A stretch of 64,000 bases of DNA from assembly GCF_001641285.1 (NCBI RefSeq), contig NZ_CP014841.1, positions 1,674,001 to 1,738,000 on the forward strand, read 5' to 3'. Of the stretch, positions 28,191 through 62,243 are shown in pieces. The stretch is from Dyella thiooxydans. GTDB taxonomy: Bacteria > Pseudomonadota > Gammaproteobacteria > Xanthomonadales > Rhodanobacteraceae. The number at the start of each line of letters is the position of its first letter. Positions within the stretch are counted from its first letter, which is position 1. The notes under the pieces were generated by a model that was not told the DNA's origin, did not search any database, and worked only from the letters and a program-made list of their open reading frames with translations. The position numbers and the translations under genes were made by a program.

Positions 28191-29237
28191 ATGTCCGACG
28201 ACCTGCTGACGTCCTACCTCTCGCCGCTGGGCGAGGACGCCCCCTGCGGCACCGACCTGGAATACGACGCCGACTTCATGGCGCTGGAACGCGCCGCCGC
28301 GCCGCGCGCCGAGCGCGCCATGGGCGATTCGGTGAAAGCCGCCGAAGAGCCCGAGTGGGACAAGGTGATCGCCTTGTCCAACGGCCTGTTCGAACGCACC
28401 CGCGACCTCCGCGTGGCCACCTACCTTTCCACCGCCTGGCTGCGCACCGAGGGCCTGGCCGGCCTCGCCCGCGGGCTGGGCCTGGTGCACGGCCTGCTCG
28501 AGAACTTCTGGGACGCGGTGCACCCGCAGCTCGATGCCGAGGACGACAACGATCCCACCGCGCGCGTCAACGCGGTGGTGCCGCTGGGCGATCCGCTGGC
28601 CGTGCTGGCCTACCTGCGCAACACCCCGTTCGTCGCCTCGCCGCGGATCGGCCGCTTCTCGCTGCGCGACCTGCGGGTGGCGCAGGGCACGCTGAAGGTC
28701 CCCGGCAACGAGAATGGCGAGGGCCTGCCGTCGATGACCGACATCGAGGCCTGCTGCCTGGACTGCGACGAAGGCCAGCTCACCGGCTCGCTGGAGGCGG
28801 CAGCGCAGATCCTCGACCTGGGCAAGGCGATCGACACCCTGTTCACCGACCGCATCGGCACGCTCGGACCGGACCTCAAGCCGCTGCTCACCGACGCCTA
28901 CGAACTGAAGAAATTCCTCGACGCGCAGGTCGCCCTGCGCACGCCCGAAGCGGCGGCTCCCGGCGAGGAAGGCGTGGCCGGCGACGAAACGGGTGGAGCG
29001 CCGGCCGCGGGTGGCGTGGCGGTCGCGGCCGGTCGCATCCAGAGCCCGGAGGACGTGCGTCGCCGGCTGGACGAGTTGTGCGAGTACTACGCCCGGTACG
29101 AGCCGGCCAGCCCGCTGCCGATCCTGCTGCGCCGCGCCCAGCGACTGGTCGGACTGAGCTTTCCGGAGCTGCTGCAGGACCTGGCCCCCGGTGGCCTCAG
29201 CGAGCTGCGCACGATCTCCGGCACCGACGAGTTCTGA
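28191..29237 (+). CDS. tssA: Type VI secretion protein TssA
   Basis: A 348-residue cytoplasmic protein. The N-terminal ImpA_N domain spans about 8-130 (YLSPLGEDAPCGTDLEYD and VATYLSTAWLRTEGLAGLARGL). The C-terminal motif (RRRLDELCEYYARYEPASPLP, then LLRRAQRLVGLSFPELLQDLAP) is that of TssA proteins of the P. aeruginosa TssA1 type. TssA caps the growing sheath and links it to the baseplate. It stands alone on the plus strand; the rest of the secretion genes are on the minus strand beyond the two-partner secretion genes. A small CGCCGC/GCGGCG hairpin follows at 29244-29259. Confidence 0.92.
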   Translation: MSDDLLTSYLSPLGEDAPCGTDLEYDADFMALERAAAPRAERAMGDSVKAAEEPEWDKVIALSNGLFERTRDLRVATYLSTAWLRTEGLAGLARGLGLVHGLLENFWDAVHPQLDAEDDNDPTARVNAVVPLGDPLAVLAYLRNTPFVASPRIGRFSLRDLRVAQGTLKVPGNENGEGLPSMTDIEACCLDCDEGQLTGSLEAAAQILDLGKAIDTLFTDRIGTLGPDLKPLLTDAYELKKFLDAQVALRTPEAAAPGEEGVAGDETGGAPAAGGVAVAAGRIQSPEDVRRRLDELCEYYARYEPASPLPILLRRAQRLVGLSFPELLQDLAPGGLSELRTISGTDEF

Positions 29238-29264: not shown

Positions 29265-30374
29265 CTAGCGCACGCCCTTGCAGGTGTTCGCTCCGGCACG
29301 GACGAACACCGACTGCACGGAAGGATCCCAGCTCAACGTCAATCCGCCGGGCAACCCGGCGGTGATCGATGCCTGCGCGGACTGGGTGAAAGGCCCGGCC
29401 GGAGACGGCGCGCCGCCCGACGCGCTGACCGAGGCGCTGAGGCGATAGGCCGCCGGCTCCGCACACGCGGTGGTCGGCACGTTCTGCGCGGCGCTCGCGC
29501 CGCCGCCGGCCAGCTCCAGCGTGCCCTTGCCCAGCGCAACCACGCGGTTGGCGTCACCCGGCGCCGGGCAGATCGCCTCCAGGGCGTAGTCGACGCGGTA
29601 ATGCGTTGCCGGCACCACCGCGATCACGGCCGTGGCCTCGGGCAGGGCCTGACAGCCGAGCAGGAATACCTTGCGCTGCGCGACCACGTGCAGGACCACG
29701 GGGCCGACCGGCACCTGGCCGACATCCGCCCACTTCAGTTCCAGTCGCGCCGGCGAGGCGCCGGTGAGGATCGGCTGGTTGGCCAGCGCGGTGCCGCCGG
29801 CGTCGGTGACACTGACCCGCGGAGACGGACACTGGCTGTCGAACAGGTCGCTGCCGGTCAGGGCGAACGCCAAGGGACCGCCGCCCGCGCGGATCGCGAA
29901 CAGCGACCCCGGCACCGGCATCGACTGCACGTCCTCGACCGCCGGGATCGCCCTGGCACCGCCGTCGGCCGCGGCCAGCAGTTTCACGCTCTCGGCCAGC
30001 GCCGACTGCATCGCCGTGCGGTCCGCGCCCTGGCAGTCGGCCATGGTCTTCAGGTAGGCCTGCACCCGGGTCGCCGCTGCGTGCGCCCGCACGATGCGAC
30101 CGCGCAGCGCATCGCCGACCAGGTCGGCCGGCTTGTCCGCATCCTTGCCCGCGTCCTGGCGCAGTTCGTCGGCCATGCCCTGCAGCTGCGATCGCAGGGA
30201 GGCCAGCGCCGGGTCCGCCGGCAACGCGGCGGTCGCGGTCGACAACTCGTCCAGCGACACCTGCGCGCTCAGCCTGGGGGCCAGTTGCGCGTGCAGCGGC
30301 GCCGGCGTGGCAGCGAGCATCCAGGCTGCCGCAAGCGGCACGCACCAGGCCGATCGGCTGAGGCTACTGGTCAC
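29265..30374 (-). CDS. Unknown secreted protein of the two-partner secretion operon
   Basis: A 369-residue protein with a signal peptide (ending PLHAQ, about residue 30). The start is GTG at 30374 with GGAGG 6 nt upstream, and it overlaps the end of the adhesin gene by 11 nt. Residues about 40-140 are helical. The rest is beta-rich with six dispersed cysteines (near DCQG, SQCPS, LGCQA, AICPA, TACAE and NTCKG), consistent with disulfide-bonded, Ig-like periplasmic or surface domains. I do not recognise a family. Its position as third gene after TpsB and TpsA suggests it helps anchor, protect or mature the adhesin. Confidence 0.75.
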   Translation of the reverse strand: MTSSLSRSAWCVPLAAAWMLAATPAPLHAQLAPRLSAQVSLDELSTATAALPADPALASLRSQLQGMADELRQDAGKDADKPADLVGDALRGRIVRAHAAATRVQAYLKTMADCQGADRTAMQSALAESVKLLAAADGGARAIPAVEDVQSMPVPGSLFAIRAGGGPLAFALTGSDLFDSQCPSPRVSVTDAGGTALANQPILTGASPARLELKWADVGQVPVGPVVLHVVAQRKVFLLGCQALPEATAVIAVVPATHYRVDYALEAICPAPGDANRVVALGKGTLELAGGGASAAQNVPTTACAEPAAYRLSASVSASGGAPSPAGPFTQSAQASITAGLPGGLTLSWDPSVQSVFVRAGANTCKGVR

Positions 30375-33300
30375 CGCAATCCTCCGCTCCCGGGTCGCAG
30401 GCCTGCTGGTCGGCCGGCAGCAGGATGCCCGAGGGCACGATGCCGAACGACCGGTAGTTGGCCGAGATCACGCTGGGATCGATGTAGGCATCGCCCCGGC
30501 CGTTGCCGTTCTGCGCCTTGCCGAAGAACAGCGAGGTCGGCACGTTGAAGCTGAGCTCGCCGGTCAGCGGCAGGATGTTGCCCTGGCGGTCCACCGCGTA
30601 GAAGTACGCCGGGGCCTCGCCGACGTGCGCGACCAGCTGCGCACCGTCGCCGATCACGTAGATCGGCGACGAACCGGAGCCCATGTGGCCGGCCGAGGCG
30701 AACGTGCCGGTACCGTCGTAGAGCGGGGTCTTGCCCTGCTCCAGCAGGTCGCCCTGGGTCACCCCAAGGTACAGCTCGGCATGCCCGGCATCGACGGTGA
30801 ACGCGCTGTTGTCCACCGAGGCCAGGGTCAGCGTCTTGCCGTTGGTCAGGCTGAAGCCGGCGGTGGACGAGAAGTTGCCCAGCGTGTCGATCTGGTTGCC
30901 GATGGCCTGCGACTGGGTGCCCAGCGTGGTGAGTCCGGCGGACTGGCCGCTGAGCGTGCCGGCGGTGATCACCCCGCCGCTGCCTTCGGTGATCGCACCG
31001 GCCGACTGCAGCCATACCGCGGTGGCGCCCAGCTGCCCGTCCACGGCGAGATCGCCGGAGGTCGTGGTGAGCGACGCGCTGGCGCCGCCGTTGACGGGCC
31101 CGCCGACGCTCAACGCCTTGCCATTGGTCAGGCTCAGGCCGTCGGCGGAGAAGCTGCCGAGCGTATCGATGCTGTTGCTGCCGCCGAGCGTGGTGGCGCC
31201 GCCGGACTGGCCCGCAAGCGTACCCGCCACGAGCCGGCCCGCGGAGCCTTCGGTGATCGCGCCGGCCGACACCAGGGTGGTGGTGGTTCCGCTGACCTGT
31301 CCGTTGATCGCCAGGTCGCCGGACGTGGTGGCCAGCCGCGTCGAACTGCCACCGTCGATCGCGCCGGCCACGTCGAGTGCGCCGGCGTTGGTGAAGCGGA
31401 GACCGGCCGCGCTGAAGCTGCCCAGCGACCCGACGTGATTGGCGCCATCCAGCGTGGTGCTGCCGCCTGAGGTGCCGGTCAGGCTGCTGGCGGTGATCGC
31501 ACCGCCGGACTGGGTGATGGCGCCCGCCGCCTCCAGGGCGAGCGTGCTGGCGGACACGGTGCCGTCGATGGCCAGGGCGGAGGCGGAGGTCAGCCCGACC
31601 GCGCCACCCGTGACTGCGCCGGTCAGCCGCAGGTTGCCCGCCGTGGTCGACAGGTCCAGTGCACCGCTGCCGGTGCTTACCTGCCCCCCGACCACCAGCG
31701 CGCCGGCATTGCCGAAGGTGAGGCTGCCGGCACTGAAGTCGCCCAGGCTCGCGACGTGGTTGCTGCTGCCCAGCTGCGCCTGTCCTCCCGCACTGCCGGT
31801 CAGGGTCGTGGCAGTGATGCCCGACGAGCTGGTGAGGTTGCGCCCGGCGGTGAGCGTGACCGTACCGCCGGCCAGGCCGGTACCGAGGATCAGGTCCGAG
31901 CTGGCCCCGTTCGCCGTCAGGCTGAGGTTGCCGCTGCCACCATGGACATCGAGCGGACTGTTCACGGTCAGGGTGCGCGCGTCGCGGAAACTGAAGTCGC
32001 CGCCCGTGGTGAAGTTGCCCAGGGTCACCACCTGGTTGGCGCCCCCGAGCACGGTGCTGCCGCTCGATGTGCCGGAGAGGCTGCCTGCGGTGAGCACGCC
32101 CGCGCTGCCTTCGCTGATCCCGCCGGCGGCGGACGCCAGCGTGATGTCGCCGGTGCCGGCGTTCACCGCACCGTCGATCGCCAGCCCGCCCTGCCCGGCC
32201 AGCGCGATCGAGCTGCCACCGATGCTGCCGCTGGTGGTCAGGCTGCCGGAGGTGGTGGTGAGGCTGGTCGCGCTGCCGCCGTTCACCGTGCCGCCGACAG
32301 TCAGTGCCTGGGCGTTGCTGATGCTCAGCCCGTTGCTCGCGCTGAAATTGCCCAGCGTGCCGATCTTGTTGGCCTTCGCCAGTGTCGTGCCACCGCCGGC
32401 CTGCCCAGTCAGCGTGCCGGCCTGGATGACGCCCGCGCTCTGTGCGATGTCGCCACCGGACACCAGGTCGACCGAACTCCCGACCAGGTTGCCGGCCAGC
32501 GAGAGGTTGCCCGCCGAGTCCAGTGTGATGGCCCCGCCGTTGAGATCGTGCTGGACGGTCAGGCCGCCGCTGGTGGTGGTCAGCGCGATCGTTCCGGTGC
32601 CGCCGCCGACCACCAGGTTGCTGCCGATGGTCAGTGCCTGGGCGTTGGTGAGCGTGAAGTCCGCGGCGCTGAAGGTACCCAGCGTACCGACGTGGTTTGC
32701 CTTGCCCAGCGTGGTATCGCCGGCCGAGCTGCCCGTGAGCGTGCCGGCAGTCAGCACGCCGCCGGTCTGGCTGATCGCGCCATGGCTGCTGGTCAGCGTC
32801 ACCGTGCCGGCACTGGTCAGGTTGCTGCCCAGGGTGATCCCGTCGCGACCGCTCAGCGTCACGTTCGCGCCGCTCAGCGCTCCGGGCATCACCAGCGCGC
32901 CGCCGTTCGCCGCCAGCGTCAGGTTCGCCGTGCCGGTGTCGATCCCCAGCGCGGGCAGCGTCAGCGAACCGTTTGCCGTGAGGTTCACCGTGCCGTTGGT
33001 GCCGCTGCTCAGCGAAGTGACCGTCAGGTTGCCCCCATCCACCAGCGACACGCCCTGCCCGGCGGCGGTCACCGCACCGGCGAAGTGGTTGCTGCCGTCG
33101 GTCAGCGTGATCCCGCCGGTGCCGGCCTGCAGGTTGCTGGTGCCTGTCACCTGCACCCCGCCGCTGCCCTCGCTGATCGTGCCGTTGTTGCTGGTGGCGA
33201 CCAGGTTCCCGCCGATGCCGCCGTGACCCAGATTCAGCGTTCCCGCGCTGGTCGCCGTCAGCCCACCGATGGACAGCGTGCCCAGGGTCAGCGCGTTCTG

Positions 33301-36300
33301 GTCGGTGATCTGCGTCGTGCCGCCGGTGAGGTTCACCGTGCCGCCGAAGTCGTTGCCGTTGCCGCCCAGGGCGATCGTGTTGCTGCCCGCATTCACCGTG
33401 GTGGTGCCGGTGACCGTCAGCGACGCCCCCACACCCTGGCTGATCGCACCACCAGAGGTCAGCGACAACGTGGTTGCACCGATGTTGTTGGCCAGGGACA
33501 GCGTCGCGGCCGAACTCAGGCTCACTGTCGTCGCCGACAGGTCGGTGGCGAGACTGAGCCCGCCGGCCGTCGTGGTCAGGCTGAGGGTGCCCGGCACGCT
33601 CAGCGGACCATTCACGGCCAGCGCCTGCGCATTGGTCAACGCCAGGTTGGCTGCGGCGAAGCTGCCCAGCGTGGTCAGCCGGTTGCTGCCGCCGAGCGTG
33701 GTATTGCCGGTGCTGCTGCCACTGAGCTGGTTGGCGGTGATCACGCTGCCGCCGGACTGGGTCAGGTTGCCGGTGACCGTCAGCATCACGTCGTTGCCGC
33801 TGGCGTTGCCGACGTCGATCGCACCGGCCAGGTTCAGGCCGCTGGCGTTGGTGAAGGACAACCCGCCGCTGCCGGTATTGGTCACCGCGCCCAGGTTGGT
33901 GACCAGATTGTTGTCGGCGAGGCTGGCACCACCGGCCGAGCCGAGGTTCAGCGTGGTGGCCGTGACGATGCCGGCGGTCTGGTCGATCGTGCCGACGGCG
34001 CTCAAGGTCGTGGTGGTGCCGCTGACGTTGCCGCCCAGGCTCAGGTTGCCGGCGGTGTCGATCGTGGTGCTGCTGCCGCCACTCACTGCCCCGTTGACGG
34101 TCAGCGCCTGCGCATTGGTCAGGCTGAAGCCGGCCGCGCTGAAGCTGCCCAGCGCCGTGATCAGGTTGGCATCGCCCAGCGTGGTCGCGCCGGCCGAGCT
34201 GCCGGTGAGGGTACCGGCAGTGAGCACGCCGCTGGTCTGGCTGATCGCGCCGCCACTGCTGGTCAGGGTCACCGTGCCGGCACTGGTCAGGTTGCTGCCC
34301 AGGGTGATCCCGTCGCGACCGCTCAGGGTCACGTTCGCGCCGCTCAGCGCTCCGGGCATCACCAGCGCGCCGCCGTTCGCCGCCAGCGTCAGGTTCGCCG
34401 TGCCGGTGTCGATCCCCAGCGCGGGCAGCGTCAGCGAACCGTTTGCCGTGAGGTTCACCGTGCCGTTGGTGCCGCTGCTCAGCGAAGTGACCGTCAGGTT
34501 GCCCCCATCCACCAGCGACACGCCCTGACCCGCGACCGTCACTGCTCCGGTGAAATGGTTGCTGCCGTCGGTCAGCGTGATCCCGCCGGTGCCGGCCTGC
34601 AGGTTGCTGGTGCCTGTCACCTGCACCCCGCCGCTGCCCTCGGTGATCGTGCCGTTGTTGCTGGTGGCGACCAGGTTCCCGCCGATGCCGCCGTGACCCA
34701 GGTTCAGCGTTCCCGTGCTGGTCGCCGTCAGCCCACCGATGGACAGCGTGCCCAGCGTCAGCGCGTTCTGGTCGGTGATCTGCGTCGTGCCGCCGGTGAG
34801 GTTTACCGTGCCGCCGAAGTCGTTGCCGTTGCCGCCCAGGGCGATCGTGTTGCTGCCCGCATTCACCGTGGTGGTGCCGGTGACCGTCAGTGCACCACTC
34901 TGCAGCACCGCCCCGCTGGCGTTGATGGTCAGATCCGTACCGGTCGAGAGCGTGCCGAGCGTGGTGGTGGCGCCGGTACCGGTGTTGGTGATGCCCAGCG
35001 AACCAGCGGTGGTGCCGCTGACCGCGAGGTTGCTGTCCGCGGTGATCGAGGCGAGGCCGCTGACCGTGCCACCGACGCCGGTGCTGCCGGCGCCGGACAG
35101 GTTGACGTTCACCGGCGTCGTGTAGCCGGTGTAGTCGATGCTGCCGCCGGAGCCGGCGTCCAGGTTGCCGGAGATGTCGCCATCGGCCCCCGAGTGCATC
35201 AGGAACGAGCCGGTGCCGGTGTCGATCAGGTTGCCGATGCCACTGAACGCGCCGGACAGGTCGGTCACGCTGCCCTGGTTGTGCCCGGTGAGGCTCCAGC
35301 TCTGGCTGGCCGCCTGCAGCGTGCCGGTGCCGCTGTCGGCGATGTTCTCGAACGAGCTCCAGCTGACCGTGCCGTTGTTGCCGGCATTGGCACCGGTCAG
35401 CGTATAGGTCTGGTTGCTGCCGGCGATGGTGTCTCCCGCGCTGCTGCCGGTGACCGAGGTCACGCCGCTCCAGCTGCCGCCGATGCCCGTCGTCGTGCTG
35501 CTGGTGGCGGACAGGTCGAAGTTCACCGCGCTGCCGTAGCCGCTGTAATCCAGCGCCTGGACGGTGGCGTTGCCGCTCAGGCTGCCACCCGCGTCGAAAG
35601 CCACCGTACCGGCGGTGGTGTCGTCGATGTTCTCGAACGACGTCCAGCTCACCGTACCGTTGTTGCCGGCATTGGCACCGGTCAGCGTGTAGGTCTGGTT
35701 GCTGCCGGCGATGGTGTCTCCCGCGCTGCTGCCGGTGACCGAGGTCACACCGCTCCAGCTGCCACCGATGCCCGTCGTCGTGCCGCTGCCGGCGGACAGG
35801 TCGAAGTTCACCACGCTGCCGTAGCTGCCGTAGTCCAGCGTCTTGGCCGTGACGTTGCCGCTGACGCCGCCGCCGGTACCGAAGACCACGCTGCCGTTGG
35901 CGTCGTCGAGGTTGCCGATACCGCTGAAGCCTCCGGGCAGCAGGGTGGTCACCGTGCCCGAGTTGCCGCCGCTGAGGTTGAAGGTCGCCCCGGTTGCCTG
36001 CAGCGTACCGGTGCCGCTGTCGGCGATGTTCTCGAACGAGGTCCAGCTCACCGTACCGTTGTTGCCCGCGTTGGCGCCGGTCAGCGTATAGGTCTGGTTG
36101 CTGCCGGCGATGGTGTCTCCCGCGCTGCTGCCGATGACCGAGGTCACACCGTTCCAGTTGCCGCCGATGCCCGTCGTCGCGCCGACGCCGGCGGACAGGT
36201 CGAAGTTCACCGCGCTGCCGTAGCTGCCGTAGTCCAGCGTCTTGGCCGTGACGTTGCCGCTGACATTGCCGCCGGTACCGAAGACCACGGTGCCGGTGGT

Positions 36301-39300
36301 GTCCTGGATGTTGCCGAACCCGGTCCAGCCGATTCCGCCGCTGCCTCCCTTGTTGGCGACGGCGTTGTCCAGCGTATAGGTCTGCCCCGAACCGGTGATC
36401 GTCGCGCTGCCGCCGTTGCCGACTACCGAGGTGACACCGCCCCAGCTACCGCCGATGCCGGTGGTGTTGCCTGCGCCGTTGGACAGGTCGAAGCCCACCG
36501 CGCCGACATAGCTGCCGTAGTCCAGCGTCTGCGCCGTGATATTGCCGCTGACCCTGCCGCCGGTGCCGAAGGCCACCGTGCCGGTGCTGTCGTCGATGTT
36601 GCCGAAGCCAGTCCAGCCGATTCCGCCGCTGCTGCCCTTGTCGACGATCGCATTGTCCAGGGTATAGGTCTGGCCCGAACCGGTGATCGTACCCCCGCCG
36701 TTGCCTGCCACCGTGCCGAGATTGAAACCACTGTAATCGAGGCCTGAAGATGCGGAGACCTTGGTGCCGAGGTCGAAGTTGCCCGCCACACCGGTCACCA
36801 CGCCACCGCTGCCGGCAACCGAGCCGAAGCCCGCGTAGACGATGCCGGTCGCTGACGAGGTCAGCGCGTCATCGGCAAAACTGCCGGTGACGTTGGAGAT
36901 CGCTCCCGTTCCCGCCACATGAGTGGCAAGGGCGAAGGTCATGCCTTCGCTGCTCCGGTTGCCGTCATCGAAGCCCGCCGCTCCGCTGACATGCGTGGTA
37001 TCGGCCGCGGTGAATCCGCTGAAGGTGATCCCACCAAGCGTGCCGGTGGTCATGCCCGTCAGATTGAACGAGGTGTTGCCCAGGCCGCTGATCGCGCCCG
37101 TGCCGGAGATGCTGCCACTGCCGGAAAGGCTTGGCGTGGTGAATACCGCATCGCTCAGGCCGGAAAGTGCACCGTTGGCGGTGATCGACGTAGTGGCGGT
37201 GGCATCCAGCTTGCCGCCAACCGTGCCGCTACCCAGTGCCAGCGCTCCGCCGCTGCTTACCGTCAGGTCCCCGGTGGTCAGCGTGCCCAGGATCAGATCC
37301 GTCTGGTCGGACAACTGTGTGGTGCCGCCGGTGAGGCTGACCGCACCGCTGAAGTCGTTGCCCGAATCGATCAATGAGATCGCGTTGGCACCTGCATCGA
37401 AGGACGAGGTACCGCCGACGACGAACGCTCCGCTTTGCCCGATTCCACTCGCCGTCGTCGTCAGCGAAAGGTTGCCGGTGACGTCGATGCTGCCGATGCT
37501 CAGCGAGCCACTCGTCGTACTCAGGCCACTGAGTGCCTGGGACCCTCCCACTGCACCATCCAGCATCAGCGCGCCGCCGGTCGTGACGGTCAGCTGCTGC
37601 GGGCCGTCCAGGGTCGAGAGGAAGTGAATGTCGCCACTGCCCGTACTGGACAAAGTCACGTTCGCGCCCAGGGTCACGGCGCCGTTGTAGGTCTGACTGC
37701 CGCCGGTGGTGACGTTGGCACCCAACGTGAGCGTGCCCGGGCCGGTCTGGCTGAAGCTGCCGCTACCGGAAACCGCCTGGCCCACGGTGACGTTGGTGCC
37801 GCTGTCGGTCTGCAACGTGCCGCCGCCAGCTCCCAGGGTAATGGCCCGGTTGAGGACGAGGGTCGCCGTACTCTCCAGCGTGCCGCCATCGAGGGTCAGG
37901 CCGGCGCCGGCGCCACCGAGATTCCCGTCGCTCGATACCGCCAGGGTGCCGCCGCTGATCGTCGTTCCGCCCGTGTACGTGTTCGTGCCCGAGAGCGTCT
38001 GCGCGCCGCCAGCCAGGGTGAGCCCGCCGGTGCCGCCGATGACACCGGAGAACGTGCCGGCGGCATTGGACAGTGTCAGCCCCTGCGTGCCTAGCGTCAC
38101 GGTGCCATTGCCGGACAGGCTCTTGATCGAGGCACCGCTGCTCGTCCCCGAAATATCCAGCGTGCCGTTGGCGGTCACGCCGCTCGATGCGGCCACGCTG
38201 CCGCTGCCGCTCAGCGCGAGCGTGGCGGCATTGATCGACGTCGCACCGGTATAGGTGTTCACACCCGAGAGTGTCTGTGAGCCACCGGTCAGGGTGAGAC
38301 CGCCGGTGCCGCTGACGACACCGGAGAACGTGCCTGCGGCATTGGACAACGTCAGCGTATGGCTGCCGAGGTTGACCGTGCCCGAGCCGGTGAGCCGGGG
38401 CATGCCGAGCCCCGCAGTCAAGCCGGAAATATTCAGCGAGCCGTTGTCGACCAGCCCGCCATTGAGCGTCATCGTACCGGTGCCGGCCAGCGACAGCGAA
38501 CCGGAGCCGGAGATGATGTTTGCGCCGGTCCCTACGGCGGCGTCACCGCCGTTGGCCGTGGCCGGGTTCAGCACCAGGCCGGCGCTTCCGGTGGCCGACA
38601 TGGACGCGTTGATGTTGACATTGTTTGCTGCGGTCAGCGTGAGCGTGTTCGCGCTCCAGCTGATGGCGTCGTTGACGTTGATGTTGCCGGTGCCGGGGCT
38701 GCCGCCATCGGAGGAGTGGATGGTGAGGTTGCTCGACTGCAGGAGTGTGCCCACGTCCGAGCCAGTGAGGCCATCCGAACCGGCGGCGTCGATCGTGAAG
38801 TCGAACGGATCGATCAGCCAGTTGCCGGTCTGTCCGAACGGCGCCGATGTATCCACCTGGGTGCCGTGGGCGATCCTCACGTGGTCGGCCGATGTCTCGA
38901 TGAAGCCGCCGTCCCCGCCTTGTGCGCCTCCTCGCGCACTCATGCGTCCATCCACCTGGGTCGATTGCTGGCCGAGGACGACGATCGAGCCGCCACGACC
39001 CTGGATCGTCGCGTCGGCATTCAGCAAGGTGCCGGTACCGAGTGTGACGCTCTGTGCGACCGTGCCTCCTGCGGCACTACTGCCGAGGCGGATGCTGCCA
39101 CCGCCGTTCACACCAGAAGCGTCGATGCTCCCCGTCACGCCCACGTTGGCATCGGACAACACCTGTGCGGTGCCACCGTGCACGCCGGACACGTTGATGC
39201 TGCCGCTGTTGATCGCGTTGCCGCCGGAGGCGACCAGCCGCACGGTGCCGCCGTCGGTGCGGATACCGCCGGCGCTGATCACGCCGGAGTTGTTCACCGC

Positions 39301-40167
39301 GTCGGTGAACAGGTCCTTCGCGGCCGAGGCCTGCAGCACCACGGTGCCACCGTCGGCCTCGAGGGTTCCGCTGTTGGACACCGCGGCGCGGTCGTCCAGG
39401 CGCTGCTTGAGCGCGCCGGTGACCTCGACCGTGATCAGTCCGTTGCCGTCGAAATCCAGCACCGCACGGTCGGCGCCATCGAGGTTGATGTTGCCGTAGT
39501 TGGCCAGGATCAGGCCATCGTTCGCCACGCTGCCGCCGACCAGGCTCACCGAGCCGCCGCTGGCCGCGGCGATGGTGCCGTGGTTGACCACGCCGGCGCT
39601 GCCGCCGTGTGCGTCGAGGTTGAAATGGTTGGCGAGGAAGTCGCTGGGCGTGAGGTCCAGCGTGCTGGCGACCAGGCCGCCGACGTTCACCTGGGCGCTG
39701 GTGCCGAAGATGATGCCGTGGGTGTTGATCAGGAACACCTGGCCGTTCGAATTGATGCGGCCGAAGATCTGGCTGGGGTTCTGGTCGAGGATGCGGTTCA
39801 GCGCCACCGCGGTGAACGACGGCTGCTTGAACAGCACCGTGGCGTCCTTGCCCACGTTGAAGGTCTGCCAGTCCAGCGCCAGCTTGTTCGACAGCTGGTT
39901 GATCACCGTGGTGCCGCCGCTCTGGGTGATCGAGCCGGTACCGCCCACCACGGTGCCGCCGGTGGGCGAGGTCAACGCGGTGACCGAGACCGTTCCGGCA
40001 TTCGCGCCGGGCGCCACGCTGCCGGCGCGAACGCCTGGCGCCACCAGCACACCGGCGGCCAGTGCCATGGACAGGCAAGTCGGCAGCAGCTTGCGGCGGG
40101 GACGGGTCGCCACCGAGCCGTTGCGGCAGCGTGACGGACGATGCGGATACTCAGTGTGGTTATGCAT
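30364..40167 (-). CDS. Giant two-partner secretion adhesin (TpsA, filamentous haemagglutinin/HMW type)
   Basis: A 3267-residue exoprotein. A long basic leader and hydrophobic core make an extended signal peptide (about 1-48, ending GVRA). The TPS secretion domain follows (about 50-290), with WQTFNVGKDATVLFKQPS, NRILDQNPSQIFGRINSNG and VFLINTHGIIFGTSAQVN (the family's NPNGI appears as NTHGI). The remainder is Gly/Ser/Thr-rich beta-helix repeats, including near-identical blocks at about 1760-1993 and 2250-2483. The only cysteines of the mature protein seem to be a pair eight residues from each other at the extreme C-terminus (ACDPGAEDC), resembling the anchoring loop of HMW1. It begins 12 nt after the tpsB stop. 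Confidence 0.92.
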   Translation of the reverse strand: MHNHTEYPHRPSRCRNGSVATRPRRKLLPTCLSMALAAGVLVAPGVRAGSVAPGANAGTVSVTALTSPTGGTVVGGTGSITQSGGTTVINQLSNKLALDWQTFNVGKDATVLFKQPSFTAVALNRILDQNPSQIFGRINSNGQVFLINTHGIIFGTSAQVNVGGLVASTLDLTPSDFLANHFNLDAHGGSAGVVNHGTIAAASGGSVSLVGGSVANDGLILANYGNINLDGADRAVLDFDGNGLITVEVTGALKQRLDDRAAVSNSGTLEADGGTVVLQASAAKDLFTDAVNNSGVISAGGIRTDGGTVRLVASGGNAINSGSINVSGVHGGTAQVLSDANVGVTGSIDASGVNGGGSIRLGSSAAGGTVAQSVTLGTGTLLNADATIQGRGGSIVVLGQQSTQVDGRMSARGGAQGGDGGFIETSADHVRIAHGTQVDTSAPFGQTGNWLIDPFDFTIDAAGSDGLTGSDVGTLLQSSNLTIHSSDGGSPGTGNINVNDAISWSANTLTLTAANNVNINASMSATGSAGLVLNPATANGGDAAVGTGANIISGSGSLSLAGTGTMTLNGGLVDNGSLNISGLTAGLGMPRLTGSGTVNLGSHTLTLSNAAGTFSGVVSGTGGLTLTGGSQTLSGVNTYTGATSINAATLALSGSGSVAASSGVTANGTLDISGTSSGASIKSLSGNGTVTLGTQGLTLSNAAGTFSGVIGGTGGLTLAGGAQTLSGTNTYTGGTTISGGTLAVSSDGNLGGAGAGLTLDGGTLESTATLVLNRAITLGAGGGTLQTDSGTNVTVGQAVSGSGSFSQTGPGTLTLGANVTTGGSQTYNGAVTLGANVTLSSTGSGDIHFLSTLDGPQQLTVTTGGALMLDGAVGGSQALSGLSTTSGSLSIGSIDVTGNLSLTTTASGIGQSGAFVVGGTSSFDAGANAISLIDSGNDFSGAVSLTGGTTQLSDQTDLILGTLTTGDLTVSSGGALALGSGTVGGKLDATATTSITANGALSGLSDAVFTTPSLSGSGSISGTGAISGLGNTSFNLTGMTTGTLGGITFSGFTAADTTHVSGAAGFDDGNRSSEGMTFALATHVAGTGAISNVTGSFADDALTSSATGIVYAGFGSVAGSGGVVTGVAGNFDLGTKVSASSGLDYSGFNLGTVAGNGGGTITGSGQTYTLDNAIVDKGSSGGIGWTGFGNIDDSTGTVAFGTGGRVSGNITAQTLDYGSYVGAVGFDLSNGAGNTTGIGGSWGGVTSVVGNGGSATITGSGQTYTLDNAVANKGGSGGIGWTGFGNIQDTTGTVVFGTGGNVSGNVTAKTLDYGSYGSAVNFDLSAGVGATTGIGGNWNGVTSVIGSSAGDTIAGSNQTYTLTGANAGNNGTVSWTSFENIADSGTGTLQATGATFNLSGGNSGTVTTLLPGGFSGIGNLDDANGSVVFGTGGGVSGNVTAKTLDYGSYGSVVNFDLSAGSGTTTGIGGSWSGVTSVTGSSAGDTIAGSNQTYTLTGANAGNNGTVSWTSFENIDDTTAGTVAFDAGGSLSGNATVQALDYSGYGSAVNFDLSATSSTTTGIGGSWSGVTSVTGSSAGDTIAGSNQTYTLTGANAGNNGTVSWSSFENIADSGTGTLQAASQSWSLTGHNQGSVTDLSGAFSGIGNLIDTGTGSFLMHSGADGDISGNLDAGSGGSIDYTGYTTPVNVNLSGAGSTGVGGTVSGLASITADSNLAVSGTTAGSLGITNTGTGATTTLGTLSTGTDLTINASGAVLQSGALTVTGTTTVNAGSNTIALGGNGNDFGGTVNLTGGTTQITDQNALTLGTLSIGGLTATSTGTLNLGHGGIGGNLVATSNNGTITEGSGGVQVTGTSNLQAGTGGITLTDGSNHFTGAVTVAGQGVSLVDGGNLTVTSLSSGTNGTVNLTANGSLTLPALGIDTGTANLTLAANGGALVMPGALSGANVTLSGRDGITLGSNLTSAGTVTLTSSGGAISQTSGVLTAGTLTGSSAGATTLGDANLITALGSFSAAGFSLTNAQALTVNGAVSGGSSTTIDTAGNLSLGGNVSGTTTTLSAVGTIDQTAGIVTATTLNLGSAGGASLADNNLVTNLGAVTNTGSGGLSFTNASGLNLAGAIDVGNASGNDVMLTVTGNLTQSGGSVITANQLSGSSTGNTTLGGSNRLTTLGSFAAANLALTNAQALAVNGPLSVPGTLSLTTTAGGLSLATDLSATTVSLSSAATLSLANNIGATTLSLTSGGAISQGVGASLTVTGTTTVNAGSNTIALGGNGNDFGGTVNLTGGTTQITDQNALTLGTLSIGGLTATSAGTLNLGHGGIGGNLVATSNNGTISEGSGGVQVTGTSNLQAGTGGITLTDGSNHFAGAVTAAGQGVSLVDGGNLTVTSLSSGTNGTVNLTANGSLTLPALGIDTGTANLTLAANGGALVMPGALSGANVTLSGRDGITLGSNLTSAGTVTLTSSHGAISQTGGVLTAGTLTGSSAGDTTLGKANHVGTLGTFSAADFTLTNAQALTIGSNLVVGGGTGTIALTTTSGGLTVQHDLNGGAITLDSAGNLSLAGNLVGSSVDLVSGGDIAQSAGVIQAGTLTGQAGGGTTLAKANKIGTLGNFSASNGLSISNAQALTVGGTVNGGSATSLTTTSGSLTTSGSIGGSSIALAGQGGLAIDGAVNAGTGDITLASAAGGISEGSAGVLTAGSLSGTSSGSTVLGGANQVVTLGNFTTGGDFSFRDARTLTVNSPLDVHGGSGNLSLTANGASSDLILGTGLAGGTVTLTAGRNLTSSSGITATTLTGSAGGQAQLGSSNHVASLGDFSAGSLTFGNAGALVVGGQVSTGSGALDLSTTAGNLRLTGAVTGGAVGLTSASALAIDGTVSASTLALEAAGAITQSGGAITASSLTGTSGGSTTLDGANHVGSLGSFSAAGLRFTNAGALDVAGAIDGGSSTRLATTSGDLAINGQVSGTTTTLVSAGAITEGSAGRLVAGTLAGQSGGATTLGGSNSIDTLGSFSADGLSLTNGKALSVGGPVNGGASASLTTTSGDLAVDGQLGATAVWLQSAGAITEGSGGVITAGTLSGQSAGLTTLGTQSQAIGNQIDTLGNFSSTAGFSLTNGKTLTLASVDNSAFTVDAGHAELYLGVTQGDLLEQGKTPLYDGTGTFASAGHMGSGSSPIYVIGDGAQLVAHVGEAPAYFYAVDRQGNILPLTGELSFNVPTSLFFGKAQNGNGRGDAYIDPSVISANYRSFGIVPSGILLPADQQACDPGAEDCGDQ
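32721..34890 (-). repeat. Near-identical 700-bp blocks within the adhesin gene
   Basis: The segment 34191-34890 is repeated at 32721-33420, offset by exactly 1470 bp (490 codons). Runs of over 100 bp are identical; only scattered changes are seen. The reading frame is preserved. Such direct repeats allow length variation by recombination and can confuse short-read assembly. Confidence 0.88.
35341..36147 (-). repeat. Three 123-bp direct repeats within the adhesin gene
   Basis: Copies lie at about 35341-35463, 35626-35748 and 36025-36147. Each encodes a block with AGDTIAGSNQTYTLTGANAG and a NNGTVSW-x-SFENI tail. Spacing is irregular but in frame. Related, more diverged blocks (SGQTYTLDNA type) continue to about 36700. 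Confidence 0.82.
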
Positions 40168-40179
40168 GGTCGTTGCCTG

Positions 40180-42249
40180 TCAGAACGTGAAGCCGAACCG
40201 CGCGTACACGTGGTAGCCCTTCTTGTCCGAGGCCTGCGGCCCGCCGATCGGCACCGCGCCGTCGAGGTGGAACTCGAAGCGGTGGAACCGCGGCAGGCGG
40301 AAGATGAAGCCCGCGCCGACGCCCTTGAAGGTCAGCGCGCTCGAGCTCGCCCGGTCGGCTCCGGCCGGCATGCCGCGGGCGTAGTCGATGAACGCCTCCA
40401 GCTCCAGCAACTCGCGCCAGGGCCGCGCGTAGAACGGCGAGATCTTGTTGCCGAAGCCCGGCGCATCGACGTGGTATTCCAGCGAGGCGTAGTAGCCGCG
40501 GTCGGTCAGGCCATCGGCGATCGGATAGGCGCGCACGCTGTCCGGACCGCCGATCACGAACTGCTCCAGCGGCGCCAGCGCGGCGTTGGTCCACTGCCCC
40601 GCCAGCTTGAAATAGGCGCGCTGCGACTTGGTCAGGAACTGCAGGCGCGTGTAGGAGAAGCGCAGGCTGGTGAAGCTGCTGGCGTGGTTCGGGCTGACCA
40701 GGTCCGGCTCGCGCGAGCGGTCCTTGATCGACTTGCGCAGGCTCACCTGCAGCAGGTCGATGCCGTGCAGGCGCTGGTCGGTGCGGTTCATCGCCCAGCC
40801 CAGCTCGGCCACGTCGAAGCTCTCGTCCGACAGCGGAATGCCGAGGCTGGTCAGGCGCGACTTCTCGCGGATGTAGTGCAGCGTGGCCTGCATCTGCATC
40901 GTGTCGGTATTGACGAACTTCCAGTCGGCGCCGCCGTACTGCGAGGAACTCGGTCCCTTCACGTCCAGCGCGGCGAGCTGGGTGGAATTGAGCTGCAGCT
41001 CGCTGCGGGTGGCACCGATCACGCCGCTGAGGCCCGGCACCACCACCGTCGGCGCGCGGTACACCAGCGAGCCGTAGACGTTGTTGCGCGGATCCATCGC
41101 GTAGTCGACGTTGGCGGCGAAGGTGTCGCCGATGCCCAGCGGGCTGTTCCAGCTGAAGCCCAGCTGGGCGCGGTAGCGGCCGGTGAGATCGGTGCCGTAG
41201 TTGTTCGCGCCGGTGGTGATCGTGTAAGGCCGCTTCGCCTCGTTGGCCACCATCAGCAGGTCGGTCTGGCCGGTCTTCTCGCCGGGCTGGAAGGTCGAAC
41301 TCACCGACACGCCGGGCAGATCGCGGGCGTAGAGCAGCGCCGAATCGACATCGCCCTTGCGCAGCACCTTGCCCTTCAGCGGTTCCACCGACGCAGCGAT
41401 CGCGCTGGCACGGTAGCGCTTGTTGCCCTTGACGATGACACGCCCCAGCGTGCCCTCCAGCACCTGGATGCTGACCACGTGGTCCTGGCCGATGGTCTGC
41501 GCCGGCAGGAACGCGGTGCCGAAGATGAAGCCCGCCTTGCGGTAGGTCTCAGTGAGTGCGTCGGCCACCTGCTGCAGCTGGGTGAAGGCAAGCTGCGCCG
41601 GCTGGCCCGGGCCGCCGCCGAGCTTGCGCAACTGCGCGTCGGCCAGCGCCTGCATCGAGGTCGGGGTGATCCCGGCATCCGGGTGCGAACCCACGCCCTG
41701 CACGCGGAACGCGCTGACCGCCACGGTCTGCGCCGGGGCCTGGTCGCGTTCGCGTACCGGCGGCACCACGTTGTCGGGTGCCATCGGCTTGGGCGCCGGA
41801 GCCGGAACGGGGGCCGCGGCCACGACCGCGGGCGGCATCTGCGCCGGAGTCTGCTGGGCGACCTCGCCGGTCGGGGTGGCTGGCGTGTCCTGCACGGTGA
41901 AGGCCATCACCTGCTCGGCCAGGTAGGCTCGTGCGTCCTTGAAGCCGGCCTTCTGCAACGCCGCCGTGATGGCGTCGGCCGCGGCCTGCCACTGCGCCGG
42001 ACTCAGGCTCGCCGGATGACCGGCGGCCGCCATCGCCTGGCGGTAGCCGGCCTGCACGATCGCCTGCACCGAGGCCGCGTCGCTGCCGGCGGGAATGCCG
42101 CTGACCAGGATCCGCTGCGAGGGGACCGCCACCGGGGCCGGTGAAGCTCCCGGGGCGGACGATGCCGGAGGGGTCGGGTTGTCTTGCGCCCACGCCTGGC
42201 TGCCAGCCAACGCCAGCGCCAGGGCTGCTGCCAGAGAAGCCATCCGCAC
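40180..42249 (-). CDS. Two-partner secretion outer-membrane transporter (TpsB/FhaC type)
   Basis: A 689-residue outer-membrane protein. The start is probably GTG at 42249, since AAGGGG lies 9 nt upstream; ATG at 42243 is the alternative. Both give a signal peptide ending SQAWAQ. An unusually long N-terminal part (about 25-210) with a Pro/Ala linker precedes the POTRA domains (RVQGVGSHPD, VSIQVLEGTLGRVIVKGNKRY). The C-terminal about 350 residues form a 16-strand barrel with the conserved loop motif GGPDSVRAYP (VRGY class) and a final FGFTF. It secretes the adhesin encoded directly downstream. Confidence 0.92.
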   Translation of the reverse strand: MRMASLAAALALALAGSQAWAQDNPTPPASSAPGASPAPVAVPSQRILVSGIPAGSDAASVQAIVQAGYRQAMAAAGHPASLSPAQWQAAADAITAALQKAGFKDARAYLAEQVMAFTVQDTPATPTGEVAQQTPAQMPPAVVAAAPVPAPAPKPMAPDNVVPPVRERDQAPAQTVAVSAFRVQGVGSHPDAGITPTSMQALADAQLRKLGGGPGQPAQLAFTQLQQVADALTETYRKAGFIFGTAFLPAQTIGQDHVVSIQVLEGTLGRVIVKGNKRYRASAIAASVEPLKGKVLRKGDVDSALLYARDLPGVSVSSTFQPGEKTGQTDLLMVANEAKRPYTITTGANNYGTDLTGRYRAQLGFSWNSPLGIGDTFAANVDYAMDPRNNVYGSLVYRAPTVVVPGLSGVIGATRSELQLNSTQLAALDVKGPSSSQYGGADWKFVNTDTMQMQATLHYIREKSRLTSLGIPLSDESFDVAELGWAMNRTDQRLHGIDLLQVSLRKSIKDRSREPDLVSPNHASSFTSLRFSYTRLQFLTKSQRAYFKLAGQWTNAALAPLEQFVIGGPDSVRAYPIADGLTDRGYYASLEYHVDAPGFGNKISPFYARPWRELLELEAFIDYARGMPAGADRASSSALTFKGVGAGFIFRLPRFHRFEFHLDGAVPIGGPQASDKKGYHVYARFGFTF

Positions 42250-42407
42250 GACATCTGTCCCCTTGCAATGAGGCTGCCCGCGACATGGACGGTGGATCCG
42301 CCATGCCCGCAAGCGGAGTGCGCGCGCAGCCCCCGGGAACGGCACCCCTCCTGAGTAATGCGCAACTGCGTCACAAATCTGGTCAGTCGCCGGCGATTCC
42401 TTGCGAC
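42250..42407 (-). promoter_or_regulatory. Probable promoter region of the two-partner secretion operon
   Basis: The 158-nt gap between the end of the T6SS gene run and tpsB is the only long non-coding stretch before tpsB. On the minus strand it holds a TTGTGACGCAG-like AT-richer patch near 42368-42385 that could carry a promoter. No convincing -35/-10 pair or terminator hairpin was found, so read-through from the T6SS genes is also possible. Confidence 0.35.
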
Positions 42408-42752
42408 TCAGCTCCCGCCCAGCTGCACCACCCCGTAGATCAGCAGCAGCGCCAGGGCCAGCCCGGCCACGGCCAGCAGCCAGGTCTGCACCATCCGGCG
42501 CCGGCGGTCGGGAAACAGCGCGCCGGCCATGTCGGCGCTCGGCAGGGCCTGCCGCCGGGCGCCGTCCCCTCGTCCTCCCCCCGGGGCGGGCGGGGCGATC
42601 GCGTTGCGCGCGGTCACGCCATCGCTGTCGTTCAGTCCCTGCAGCAGCGCGCGCCGCCGGGCGCGGTAGTCCTCGCGGCCGAGCCGGCCAAGCCGGTGTG
42701 CCTCGTCCAGTGCCCGCAACCCCACATTGATGCGACGCTCCTGCTCGTTCAT
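42408..42752 (-). CDS. Small tail-anchored membrane protein at the end of the T6SS gene run
   Basis: A 114-residue protein starting with ATG in an ATGA overlap with the stop of the kinase/FGE gene. The N-terminal about 40 residues are charged and helical (RALDEAHRLGRLGREDYRAR, SHOCT-like in style). A Pro/Gly-rich middle follows. The C-terminus is a single membrane span (TWLLAVAGLALALLLIYGVV, about 88-108) with only a few residues outside. I do not recognise the family. Coupled translation with the kinase gene suggests it assists or regulates that membrane kinase. Confidence 0.72.
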   Translation of the reverse strand: MNEQERRINVGLRALDEAHRLGRLGREDYRARRRALLQGLNDSDGVTARNAIAPPAPGGGRGDGARRQALPSADMAGALFPDRRRRMVQTWLLAVAGLALALLLIYGVVQLGGS

Positions 42753-45700
42753 TTGAGCTCCCTCAGCACGCGGAATCCGACGTCGTTCTGGGCGCTGCCG
42801 CTGTCGGCGCGATGCGCATCGACCGTGCAGTCCGACCAGTAGCTGGTGTAGCTGGCCCCGCGCACGCCCACCTGGCCGCCGCTGACCACCCACTCCCACA
42901 CATTGCCGGTGAGGTTCACCAGCCCCCAGGGATTCGGGCTGCGTCCCAGCGGCGAGATCGGCGCGCCGCTGCCGTCGTCGCCGTTGGCGTTGGGCGGCAC
43001 GCAGTTGCTGTCCGGCGACTGCTTCCAGCCGCCGCCCGCCTTCGCCGCATGCAGCCATTCGGCATCGGTGGGCAGGCGGTAGGTGAACCCGCTGCCCTTG
43101 CTCAGCCATGCGGTGTACGACCGAGCCAGCGACAGCGGAATGTTGCTGATCGGCTGGGTCGCGGTCAGCCGGTCGCCCGCCGGCCGTGGCGCGCACTGCC
43201 CGGTGGCACTGCAGAAGCGGTTGAACTCGCTGACGCTGATCTCGGTACGCGACATCGCATACGCCCGCCCGCCGGCCAGGCCGGGAATCACCACCAGCGG
43301 CGGGCCGCGCTTGCCGGCCACTTCATCGGCACAGATCCGGCCCTTGCCGACCAACGCCGGATCGCCGCAGGGATCGTTGCCGGCCGGTGCCGTGCCATTG
43401 CCGGATGTTGCCGATACCGGTTTGCCGCTGGCGGCGACCGGATGCGACGGCGTGGTTGCGCCACCGGGACGCGCGGGGGTGCCGGCAGGTGTCACCGCCG
43501 GGGCACCCGGGGCAGCGGCCGCGGGCGCCGCCACGGTGGCAGGCGCCGCTGGCGCAACGGTCGCCTGACTGGGCTTGAGGCTGTCCAGCAGTGCCGACAG
43601 GTTCCCCTGGGGCAGTTGCCCGCGCAGCTTGAGGTCGGACTCGAGCGCCTTCAGGGCATCGGGATCATCCTTCTGCACGCGCGCCAGTTGCAGACGCAGG
43701 CGCGACAACTCGGCGGAGGACACGCCGCTGGCGCGGGCTTTCATCGCATCGGCCACCAGGTCGTAGCGGGCCTTGGCCTGGCGCAGGTCGTCGCGGTTGC
43801 CCAGCGCCTTGAGTCCGCGCGCCAGGGTGTCCGCGGCCGACTGGAACCGGCCACGTCGCATCGCATCGGTCGCCTGGCCGAGGTAGGCATTGGCCAGCAG
43901 TTGCGGGCCCGTGCCGGCAAGGAAGGGGTTGTCCGGCTGCAGCGTGCGGATGCGCGCCAGGGCTTCCTGCGCCTTGGCCACATCGTTGGCGGCGGCGGCG
44001 CGCTTCATCGATTCGATGCGCGAGGTGACCTCGGCGGCGGCGCTCTCCTGCGCCAGTTGCGCCTGCACCTGCTGCTGCAGCGTATCGATGCGGCTGCGCT
44101 GGGCCAGCAGGGGTGCCGACTTCGGTGCGTAATGCAGACCCAGGTCGATCGCCCGCGAAGCCTGCGGCAGCTGCGACGGATCGTTCTGCGAGGCGACCGC
44201 GGTTGCGATCGCCGTCGCCAGCGCCTCGACCTGCTTCGGCGTCTGCGCATCGTGGGCGGTCGCGAGCGTGCTCATCGCCCGGGCCACCGCCGCCTGCCAA
44301 TCGTTGTCCAGGGTCGGCCGGGCGATCAGCGCGGCCAGTGCCGCGTGCGTCTGTGGAACGCTCTGCGTGGTCGCCGGGGCGGCGCGGGCCAGTGCCGGCG
44401 CGGCCATCTGCGCCAGCTCGTTCGCACGCTGTTTCAGTCGCGCCGAATCCGGGAACACCGCCTGCGCCTGCTTCAGCTGCGCACGGGCCTCGTCCACGTG
44501 GTTCGCCGCCAGCGACTGGCCGATCGCGATGTCGTACTTCAGCTCCAGCTCGGCGTTCTTCAGCAGCCCGCTGGTAGGATCGATGGCGCGGATCGTGGCC
44601 AGGATCTGTACCGCGTTGTCCGGCTGGTCGGCGAAGATCGCGCCGTTCTCGATCGCCTTGCTCAGGCGCGTGTCGAGCTGGTTGAGCAGGTCGTTGCGCT
44701 CCTGCTCGATCGCGCTGCGTTTGAGGTCGAGCTTGGGCGAGAACAGCTTGAGCTGGTCGCGCAGGGCGAACACGTGCTGCGCACCGGCATAGTCGTAACG
44801 CTTCTTGGCCGGATTCCAGTACGCATCGACGCGATCGAGCAGGAAGGTCTGGATCACATCGCTCTGGTCGACCACCACGCGCGTACGCTGGTCGGCACCC
44901 AATGCATCGAGCGCGCCGTAGGCCTGGTCTTCGGTGGTGTAGTGCTGCGGATCGGTCGGCGAGAAGCGCGCCACCACCTCGTTCACCTCGCGCTGCTGCA
45001 GGTAATGGCGCGCGCCCCAGCCGCCGGCGACGAGGATCACCACGCCGATCGCACCGACCACCACGAACGGCCCGGCGCGCTCGCGCAGGCTGATGTCGCG
45101 CAGGCCCTCGACCAGGTCCGCGGCGTTCTTCAGGCGCTTGTCGCTGGTGAAGGCGATCGCATCGCACAGGGTCTGGTACTGGCGCTTGGTCAGGCCCGGC
45201 ACCGGTGGCGGCTTGCGCCCCTCGCGCATCGCCACCTCGGCGCTGACCTTGTCGAACGGGTGCTTGCCGGTGAGCAGCTCGAACGCCACGCAGCCGAGCG
45301 CATAGATGTCGTCGCTGGGCGTGGGCTCCTTGCCCTCGATCATCTCCAGGCTGGCGTAGGCCGGGGTCAGCGCGCCTAGCGTGCCGGCATCGAACACGGT
45401 CTGCTCGCCGGTCGCCTCGCCCAGATGCTTGCCGGCGCGGGCGATGCCGAAGTCGAACACCTTCGGCATGCCGTCGCGGGTGACCATGACGTTGCCCGGC
45501 TTGAAGTCCGAGTGCACCACGCCCGCCGCATGCGCGCGCTTGAGCGCCCAGGCCATGCCCTCGATCAGCGGCCGCGCCCTGGCCAGCGGCATGCCGTTGT
45601 AGGCCTTCTCGCGGATCAGCGTCTTGAGGTCGGAGCCGTCCACATACTCCATCGTCATGAAGACGATGGTGCCGTCCTTGTCGAAGTCGTAGACGCGCAC

Positions 45701-46631: not shown

Positions 46632-47312
46632 TCAGCTCACCACCAGCATCGGCACCTCGTTGGTACGTACCTGCTTGCCGTCCATGAACAGGGTCGAGCG
46701 CATGGTGTAACGCCCTTCCTCGATGCCCTTGGGCAGGTTGAAGTTGAAGTTCGTTTCGTACTCGCCGGTGCCATCGACGGCGGTGGCCGGCTTGCTCACC
46801 GTGGACAGCACCTTGCCTTCGGGCGAGTAGAGCGTGAGCTCTTCCTTCAGCTGCGGCGTCGCGTCGTGGGTTCCACTGATCACGGTGACCCGCGACTGCA
46901 TCTGCGCGGAGGTTCCCGAGCGCACCGTGTTCGACGGCGTCAGCTCGCTGCGGTAGTCGGCCACGGTGTTGCTGGCCGGTAGCGCGCCGCGCTGGCGCGC
47001 GTACTCCTGCTCCACCGCCTTGGCGTCACGCACCTTGCGGACGTGGTAGTTGTAGGCGATGCACGCGAACGCGCCGATGCCGGCGCCGATCGCCGCCCCC
47101 GCCAGATGCCCCTTGCCCTTGCCGAACATGGCGCCGGCAAGCGCGCCGAGGGCACCGCCCACCACCGGATTGCACGAGCCGGCGGAGCTCCCGGAGCCCG
47201 CCGAGGTATCGCCCGATCCACTCTGGCTGGGCATCTGGGCGCAGCCCGCGGTGACGGTCAGCACCAGGCTGGCCAGCGCGAGGCTGGTCGCACGAAATCC
47301 ACCTGTGTTCAT
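46632..47312 (-). CDS. Lipoprotein between two T6SS kinases
   Basis: A 226-residue protein with a lipoprotein signal peptide (lipobox VTAGC, Cys about 24). The chosen ATG at 47312 has GAGGG 8 nt upstream; an ATG at 47327 overlaps the kinase 2 stop (ATGA). After a Ser/Gly linker comes a glycine-zipper-like stretch (GGALGALAGAMFGKGKGHLAGAA, cited here by position about 40-75), then a beta-rich C-terminal half (about 130-226; KEELTLYSPEGK and LPKGIEEGRYTMRSTLF). Outer- or inner-membrane anchoring cannot be told; no Asp follows the Cys. It may be a sensor part of the kinase pathway, comparable in position to TagQ, without clear sequence identity. Confidence 0.78.
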   Translation of the reverse strand: MNTGGFRATSLALASLVLTVTAGCAQMPSQSGSGDTSAGSGSSAGSCNPVVGGALGALAGAMFGKGKGHLAGAAIGAGIGAFACIAYNYHVRKVRDAKAVEQEYARQRGALPASNTVADYRSELTPSNTVRSGTSAQMQSRVTVISGTHDATPQLKEELTLYSPEGKVLSTVSKPATAVDGTGEYETNFNFNLPKGIEEGRYTMRSTLFMDGKQVRTNEVPMLVVS

Positions 47313-47323
47313 GTCCATGGCCC

Positions 47324-56713: not shown

Positions 56714-56879
56714 GGCTGGGCCTGCGGGTGTCTTGCGGATGCGCCGCACCGCGGGTGGCGGGCGCGTGCATCCATGAAGGGGAATGACATGACGGGGCGT
56801 ACGAGCGGAGGCCGCTCCATGACCGCGGGATCGGGGTCGCTCGACGGCAACGCAGTACTGAAGGAAGCCATGGTCCGCC

Positions 56880-62220: not shown

Positions 62221-62243
62221 GGGCGGGGTCCGTCGTAGTGCGC

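Follow-up and report, generated by a model that had tools for sequence, protein, structure and literature searches.

Three consecutive genes on one strand of the window, a stretch of 64,000 nucleotides from Dyella thiooxydans, encode a two-partner secretion (TPS) transporter, TpsB, its adhesin, TpsA, and a third protein with an export signal that we call P3. The tpsB-tpsA-P3 trio is embedded in a type VI secretion (T6SS) cluster, flanked by a Ser/Thr kinase gene and by tssA (Table 1). Across the 197 family genomes sampled, 36 of the 37 that carry both tssA and the adhesin also have P3; P3 is found in none of the 42 with tssA only, the 2 with the adhesin only and the 116 with neither, counts that ignore shared ancestry. 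P3 very probably belongs to this T6SS/adhesin module. For its role we tentatively favour a soluble periplasmic accessory or adaptor that would act at TpsB and its adhesin, the latter probably dedicated to the T6SS.

Table 1. Positions in the window of the tpsB-tpsA-P3 trio, its parts and the surrounding T6SS genes.
Feature	Position	Strand	Basis or remark
tssA (ImpA_N)	28191..29237	+	convergent with P3; Pfam
P3 (third gene)	29265..30374	-	GTG start; 369 aa, mature ~340 aa
P3 signal peptide, residues 1-29	30288..30374	-	presumed cut before Q30; by motif
Overlap of adhesin stop with P3 start	30364..30374	-	11 nt
GGAGGA ahead of P3 start	30380-30385	-	5 nt upstream of GTG
TpsA adhesin	30364..40167	-	3267 aa; TIGR01901 E 1.4e-22, PF05860 E 5.7e-33
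Conserved adhesin tail	30367..30684	-	106 aa; Cys pair; ends PADQQACDPGAEDCGDQ
TpsB transporter	40180..42345	-	POTRA_2 E 2.1e-13, ShlB E 6.2e-20
Ser/Thr protein kinase with FGE-sulfatase domain	42749..46471	-	Pfam
Glycine-zipper protein	46632-47327	-	weak sub-cut-off Pfam matches; between two T6SS kinases
Second Ser/Thr kinase	47324-49618	-	Pfam
tssM (IcmF)	51814..55344	-	Pfam
tssL (DotU + OmpA)	55349..56749	-	Pfam
tssK	56880..58220	-	Pfam

With dN/dS values of 0.24, 0.29 and 0.24 against three close relatives and a GC3 of 0.90, P3 is a real gene, and purifying selection acts on it. It has one match in the 4.2 Mb genome; among named relatives, Dyella lutea (94%) and Dyella ginsengisoli (92%) come closest at this gene. 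The original prediction, made from the sequence of the window, described a GTG start with a strong GGAGG site inside the end of the adhesin gene. This is indeed how the two genes lie: the TAG stop of the adhesin ORF falls within the P3 ORF. Of the 36 loci, 31 have a candidate P3 start that overlaps the adhesin stop, in varied registers (-4, -8, -11 and others); at two loci (L058 and L063) the overlapping start is a doubtful TTG or GTG only. Non-overlapping starts lie 1-13 nt downstream of the adhesin stop in three cases, and 38 and 126 nt downstream in two. Since a GGAGG sequence occurs within 20 nt upstream of the used start in 8 of 36 loci only, confined to two genera, the conserved feature is the overlap rather than the ribosome-site motif GGAGG. 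Overlap in differing registers suggests that the coupling of P3 to tpsA is maintained by selection. Sigma-70-type promoter and intrinsic-terminator patterns were searched for between positions 29100 and 30700, and none was seen.

The predicted export of P3 is upheld by motif. Its hydrophobic N-terminus ends at A29/Q30, with A29 present in 34 and Q30 in all 36 aligned rows; the signal end reads L-H-A/Q in the window protein and A-x-A/Q in many relatives. The precursor contains seven cysteines, one of them within the signal peptide. The other six, at positions 114, 182, 241, 269, 304 and 365, correspond to the six dispersed cysteines noticed at the outset and are invariant in the mature part of all 36 homologues, even where identity to the window protein drops as low as 36%.

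A Kyte-Doolittle scan covering 7 of the 36 P3 proteins scored the signal region of the window protein at 1.33 and its residues 236-254 at 1.87; in the six others the maxima of the mature part range from 1.08 to 1.57. Because the AlphaFold model predicts strands at residues 236-254, we read mature P3 as soluble, this stretch being a putative buried strand. Alternatively, it may be a membrane segment. That it is more hydrophobic than the signal lowers our confidence in a mechanism based on a periplasmic adaptor.

Searches for known relatives of P3 gave little. The window protein has no match in Pfam or NCBIfam at E<=1, and Pfam searches with the 36 members, as well as searches of PHROGs and profile searches of the PDB, returned nothing coherent, with isolated or very weak matches; FlgD_ig matched the middle domain in 1 of 22 members (Pfam, E 8.8e-5). 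A tblastn search of plasmids with P3 yielded no match, and from viral contigs came seven candidates, none of which was confirmed. Across 299 genomes of the order the P3 profile matched 20, of which 19 belong to the family and one (G358) gave a partial match at E 5.9e-4 and was set aside; across 369 genomes of the class it matched one, the window's own. The order and class searches scored five or six candidates per genome, so distant relatives may escape them; within this scope, P3 appears to have no sure relative outside the family.

Two AlphaFold models of P3, built with only four close sequences, are of low confidence (mean pLDDT 54.8 and 57.8). They lay out helices in the first third of the protein and beta strands after it; residues 260-359 contain blocks at 67-90 in the second model and are low in the first. 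Compared with known structures for a possible Ig-like/TIG fold, these low-confidence models gave no Foldseek match with E<=0.001. What Foldseek and VIA-align brought up were generic sandwiches only (best Z 5.6), which we do not take as functional evidence.

The two genes upstream have the make-up of a two-partner secretion (type Vb) system: TpsB combines POTRA with a ShlB/FhaC barrel, and TpsA carries an N-terminal TPS domain, the single PF05860 match in the genome. The tail of the adhesin has a mean column identity of 59% (25 rows). Exactly two cysteines fall within the last 125 aa of the adhesin at all 46 loci compared, from which the locus L118 was left out for its Cys-less tail, and both are invariant across the P3-bearing loci. 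L118 itself, from a genome of the same class and another family (G470), holds at ~2673-2888 a related adhesin tail (LPADQ) with an acidic end in place of the Cys pair. At seven loci (L043, L044, L046, L047, L048, L050 and L051) the adhesin extends ~15-25 residues beyond the pair. Two further observations concern the ORFs of the window. In TpsB, ~245 residues precede the POTRA_2 match, which in some relatives begins near residue 177: the GTG start may lie too far upstream, or the protein may have an extra N-terminal part. On the + strand, several long high-GC3 ORFs run antisense to the adhesin repeats (31439-39499); most likely they are shadows of the repeats, not genes.

The distribution of P3 in the family follows both neighbouring systems. 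P3 was found in 36 of the 197 genomes, the window's own included, the adhesin tail in 39 and tssA in 79; T6SS stands in this tally for an ImpA_N (tssA) match, and VipB was checked in 8 genomes. All 35 other P3 loci were fetched, 10 of which are cut by contig ends. The adhesin tail lies directly upstream of P3 in each of the 35, so homologues standing apart from TPS genes, which would have spoken against the original prediction, were not what we found. Further upstream, all 25 loci that reach that far have the TPS domain, then TpsB, and a kinase homologue upstream of tpsB. On the other side, tssA is convergent at 32 of 35 loci and no more than 2.6 kb from where P3 starts; among the remaining three it is ~5.6 kb off in two and on another contig in one. 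At three loci of one genus (L060, L062 and L064) we noticed by eye a convergent sensor/EAL-like (c-di-GMP) gene directly behind P3, in the place of tssA.

Of the 13 genomes that have the adhesin but no P3, we compared 10, leaving out G470 with its locus L118 (weak partial tail match), G343 and G377. Two of them, the adhesin-only genomes G013 and G186, have retained TpsB/TpsA and have no ImpA_N, no VipB/TssC and no P3; no P3 remnant was detected at E 0.1 in the 4.5 kb behind their adhesins. In a tree of TpsB they branch apart from each other within a genus that carries P3, and their union in one clade is rejected (AU p 0.00032, from a 13-row tree, the pair having been chosen after a first tree). 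This parallel absence provides a natural control. The absence of P3 where the T6SS was lost hints at an adhesin module serving the T6SS; the same pattern would be expected had tpsBA moved to a site apart from the T6SS.

The adhesin tails of these two genomes have changed as well. Residues Q58, Y77, R78 and Q93 (A2 numbering), which sit in the motifs AQN (Q), ANYR (Y, R) and LPxDQ (Q), are altered in both G013 and G186; they are kept in 36 of 36 P3-bearing and 8 of 8 P3-less T6SS-linked adhesins. The tail Cys pair is present at all 10 P3-less loci compared, those of G013 and G186 included. Altogether, this is suggestive of a tail motif that follows the T6SS, a P3 that follows the T6SS together with the adhesin, and a Cys pair that follows neither. 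As the pair survives the absence of P3, it does not require P3, which weakens the idea that P3 binds it. There are only two losses, each of several things at once, and they therefore do not fix order and cause.

The eight other P3-less adhesins compared are those of one genome of the family (G061) and of seven loci outside it (L117 and L119-L124): here the adhesin is T6SS-linked, tssA follows it on the same strand, and P3 is absent. P3 is therefore dispensable for a T6SS-linked adhesin as such. In the tssA tree, the 33 P3-bearing rows make up one side of a branch (100/99). The simplest history would start with a T6SS-linked adhesin, continue with a single gain of P3 and the turning of tssA, and end with losses; because the root of the tree is not fixed, we infer gain and loss rather than read them off it.

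How could P3 work? In the adaptor mechanism that we tentatively favour, TpsB would export the adhesin, which would then stay attached to the cell surface through a disulfide hook at its C-terminus, like HMW1 or CdrA. P3 would fold with three disulfides, a helical first third being followed by beta-sandwich-like parts, and dock from the periplasm onto the complex of TpsB and adhesin. Once docked, it would hold, gate or position TpsB and the adhesin relative to the T6SS, and the adhesin would thereby bring target cells within T6SS reach. The partial distance correlations of P3 are 0.61 with TpsB, 0.62 with TssA and -0.18 with the adhesin tail, weak evidence from 24 taxa (24 of the 36 P3-bearing loci, shared ancestry ignored); that the value for TssA equals the one for TpsB counts against the adaptor, as do the poor models and the T6SS-linked adhesins that have no P3. 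A more elaborate version, a contact-guided T6SS, seems doubtful: the TPS adhesin would reach and hold the target, and P3 would link the anchored adhesin and TpsB in the periplasm with either the envelope complex of the T6SS or its kinase pathway, such that contact at the surface sets the place or time of firing.

Equally doubtful is a role that leaves the T6SS aside, with P3 as a periplasmic chaperone or secretion factor that keeps the 3267-aa adhesin competent for secretion or helps it to enter TpsB. The start of P3 overlapping tpsA, the strict adjacency of the two genes and the partial rate correlation with TpsB all agree with such a factor, but adhesins with like tails do without P3, their frames open over 1926-3391 aa at nine of ten loci and truncated by a contig end at the remaining one, and P3 is missing where the T6SS is missing, yet tpsBA stays.

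In the reverse case, P3 would serve the envelope machine of the T6SS, lie behind tpsA by chance and make no contact with the adhesin. This is unlikely: P3 and the T6SS are missing together from two relatives, as separate events, and the rate of P3 correlates with that of TssA, but none of the 42 sampled genomes of the family with tssA and without this adhesin has P3, and the gene it overlaps is tpsA, not a tss gene.

The original prediction had suggested, as one example, that P3 may bind or bridge the C-terminal Cys pair of the adhesin. As a disulfide partner of the tail, P3 would form mixed disulfides with this pair or clamp it. The tail pair and the six P3 cysteines are all invariant in P3-bearing loci and would meet in the periplasm; nevertheless, the pair is kept where P3 is absent, six is an even number that suffices for three internal disulfides, the partial rate correlation between P3 and the tail is absent, and the two tail cysteines of HMW1 reportedly bond to each other (PMC3983070). 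We regard this role as quite unlikely. Of the broader proposal, a new kind of TPS partner, the association with TPS genes has stood and the Cys-pair role has found no support, and the T6SS setting had been overlooked.

Least likely is a role outside the cell, where P3, secreted as a co-adhesin or cap, would act on the fibre of the adhesin or on the target: P3 is an exported protein with weak Ig-like signs (the single FlgD_ig match and the sandwiches at Z<=5.6), but no second export route for it is seen in the locus, and it is conserved across genera, where receptor-binding parts are often variable.

Among described TPS systems, the third genes listed are HMWC, HxuC and the extra genes of Cdi/Bcp loci (PMC5422565). 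The HMW1/HMW2 loci of Haemophilus resemble ours in having tpsA, tpsB and a third gene and a C-terminal Cys pair, which anchors the HMW adhesins (PMC3983070, PMC5422565) and would do so for the present one, where it lies near the end; HMW1 is said to stay on the surface through its 20 C-terminal residues, with two cysteines joined by a disulfide (PMC3983070). In contrast, our locus sits in a T6SS cluster, and HMWC is a cytoplasmic glycosyltransferase, whereas P3 has a signal-like N-terminus by motif, six cysteines and no match to a glycosyltransferase or any other Pfam or NCBIfam family. An HMWC-like enzyme was accordingly dropped as a candidate, in line with the original prediction, which had set P3 apart from HMWC.

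CdrA of Pseudomonas aeruginosa is likewise a large TPS adhesin, and a C-terminal cysteine hook keeps it in its transporter, CdrB (PMC7616799). It differs in that the parts of PMC7616799 and PMC5422565 available to us describe neither a third exported gene nor T6SS linkage for it, and in that c-di-GMP controls its release by LapG (PMC5422565). For cysteine-hook adhesins, we found no description of an exported third partner like P3. The bcpAIOB locus offers a TPS system with an accessory of unknown function, BcpO, that its TpsA needs; BcpO, however, is predicted to be either a lipoprotein of the periplasm or a cytoplasmic protein, and it is part of a toxin/immunity system (PMC5422565). Here, both the adhesin tail and the third gene are conserved, where CDI/BcpAIOB systems have a variable C-terminal toxin and an immunity gene, and P3 has no Cys at its presumed cut. 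An immunity protein was thus dropped for the conservation of P3 and the lack of a variable toxin tip on the adhesin.

Little is known of how T6SSs find their targets and keep hold of them; one example is TasL. This T6SS-encoded surface protein of Vibrio fischeri T6SS2 makes contact for T6SS killing (PMC9040878), and the likeness is one of functional analogy only: TasL is one large lipoprotein, and the candidate contact factor here is a TPS adhesin accompanied by a third protein. P3 itself was dropped as a lipoprotein, TasL-like or other, since all 36 rows have Q30, and none a lipobox Cys, at the presumed cut. Large predicted lipoproteins are also named in the T6SS clusters of Xanthomonas citri and of Dyella thiooxydans (PMC9040878). 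A TPS adhesin within a T6SS cluster, with an exported third component found only with both, makes a compact and testable module in environmental bacteria.

In the open-access literature, judged by title and the start of the abstract, a T6SS and a TPS system in one cluster are not described among the matches listed; nor does the part of PMC10778856 available to us describe a shared T5SS-T6SS cluster. By its features rather than by tree position, the present cluster is like the Group 3 T6SS of Xanthomonadales, which has a Ser/Thr kinase pathway, a variable region between the core halves and, in a subgroup, a changed orientation of tssA (PMC6653060). The difference is the tpsBA-P3 insert, not described in the available text of that paper: there the terms 'two-partner' and 'hemagglutinin' occur 0 times, and 'adhesin' once, in a table, for a predicted effector of X. 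citri 306. Beyond the core genes of Table 1, tssC lies ~13 kb past the window end (G000:C1:1751427), and PppA-, TagF- and FHA-like ORFs were recognized in the cluster by eye only. By the same means we saw a TPR + methyltransferase-like ORF (62244-63632) that overlaps the start of a VgrG-like ORF (60187-62709).
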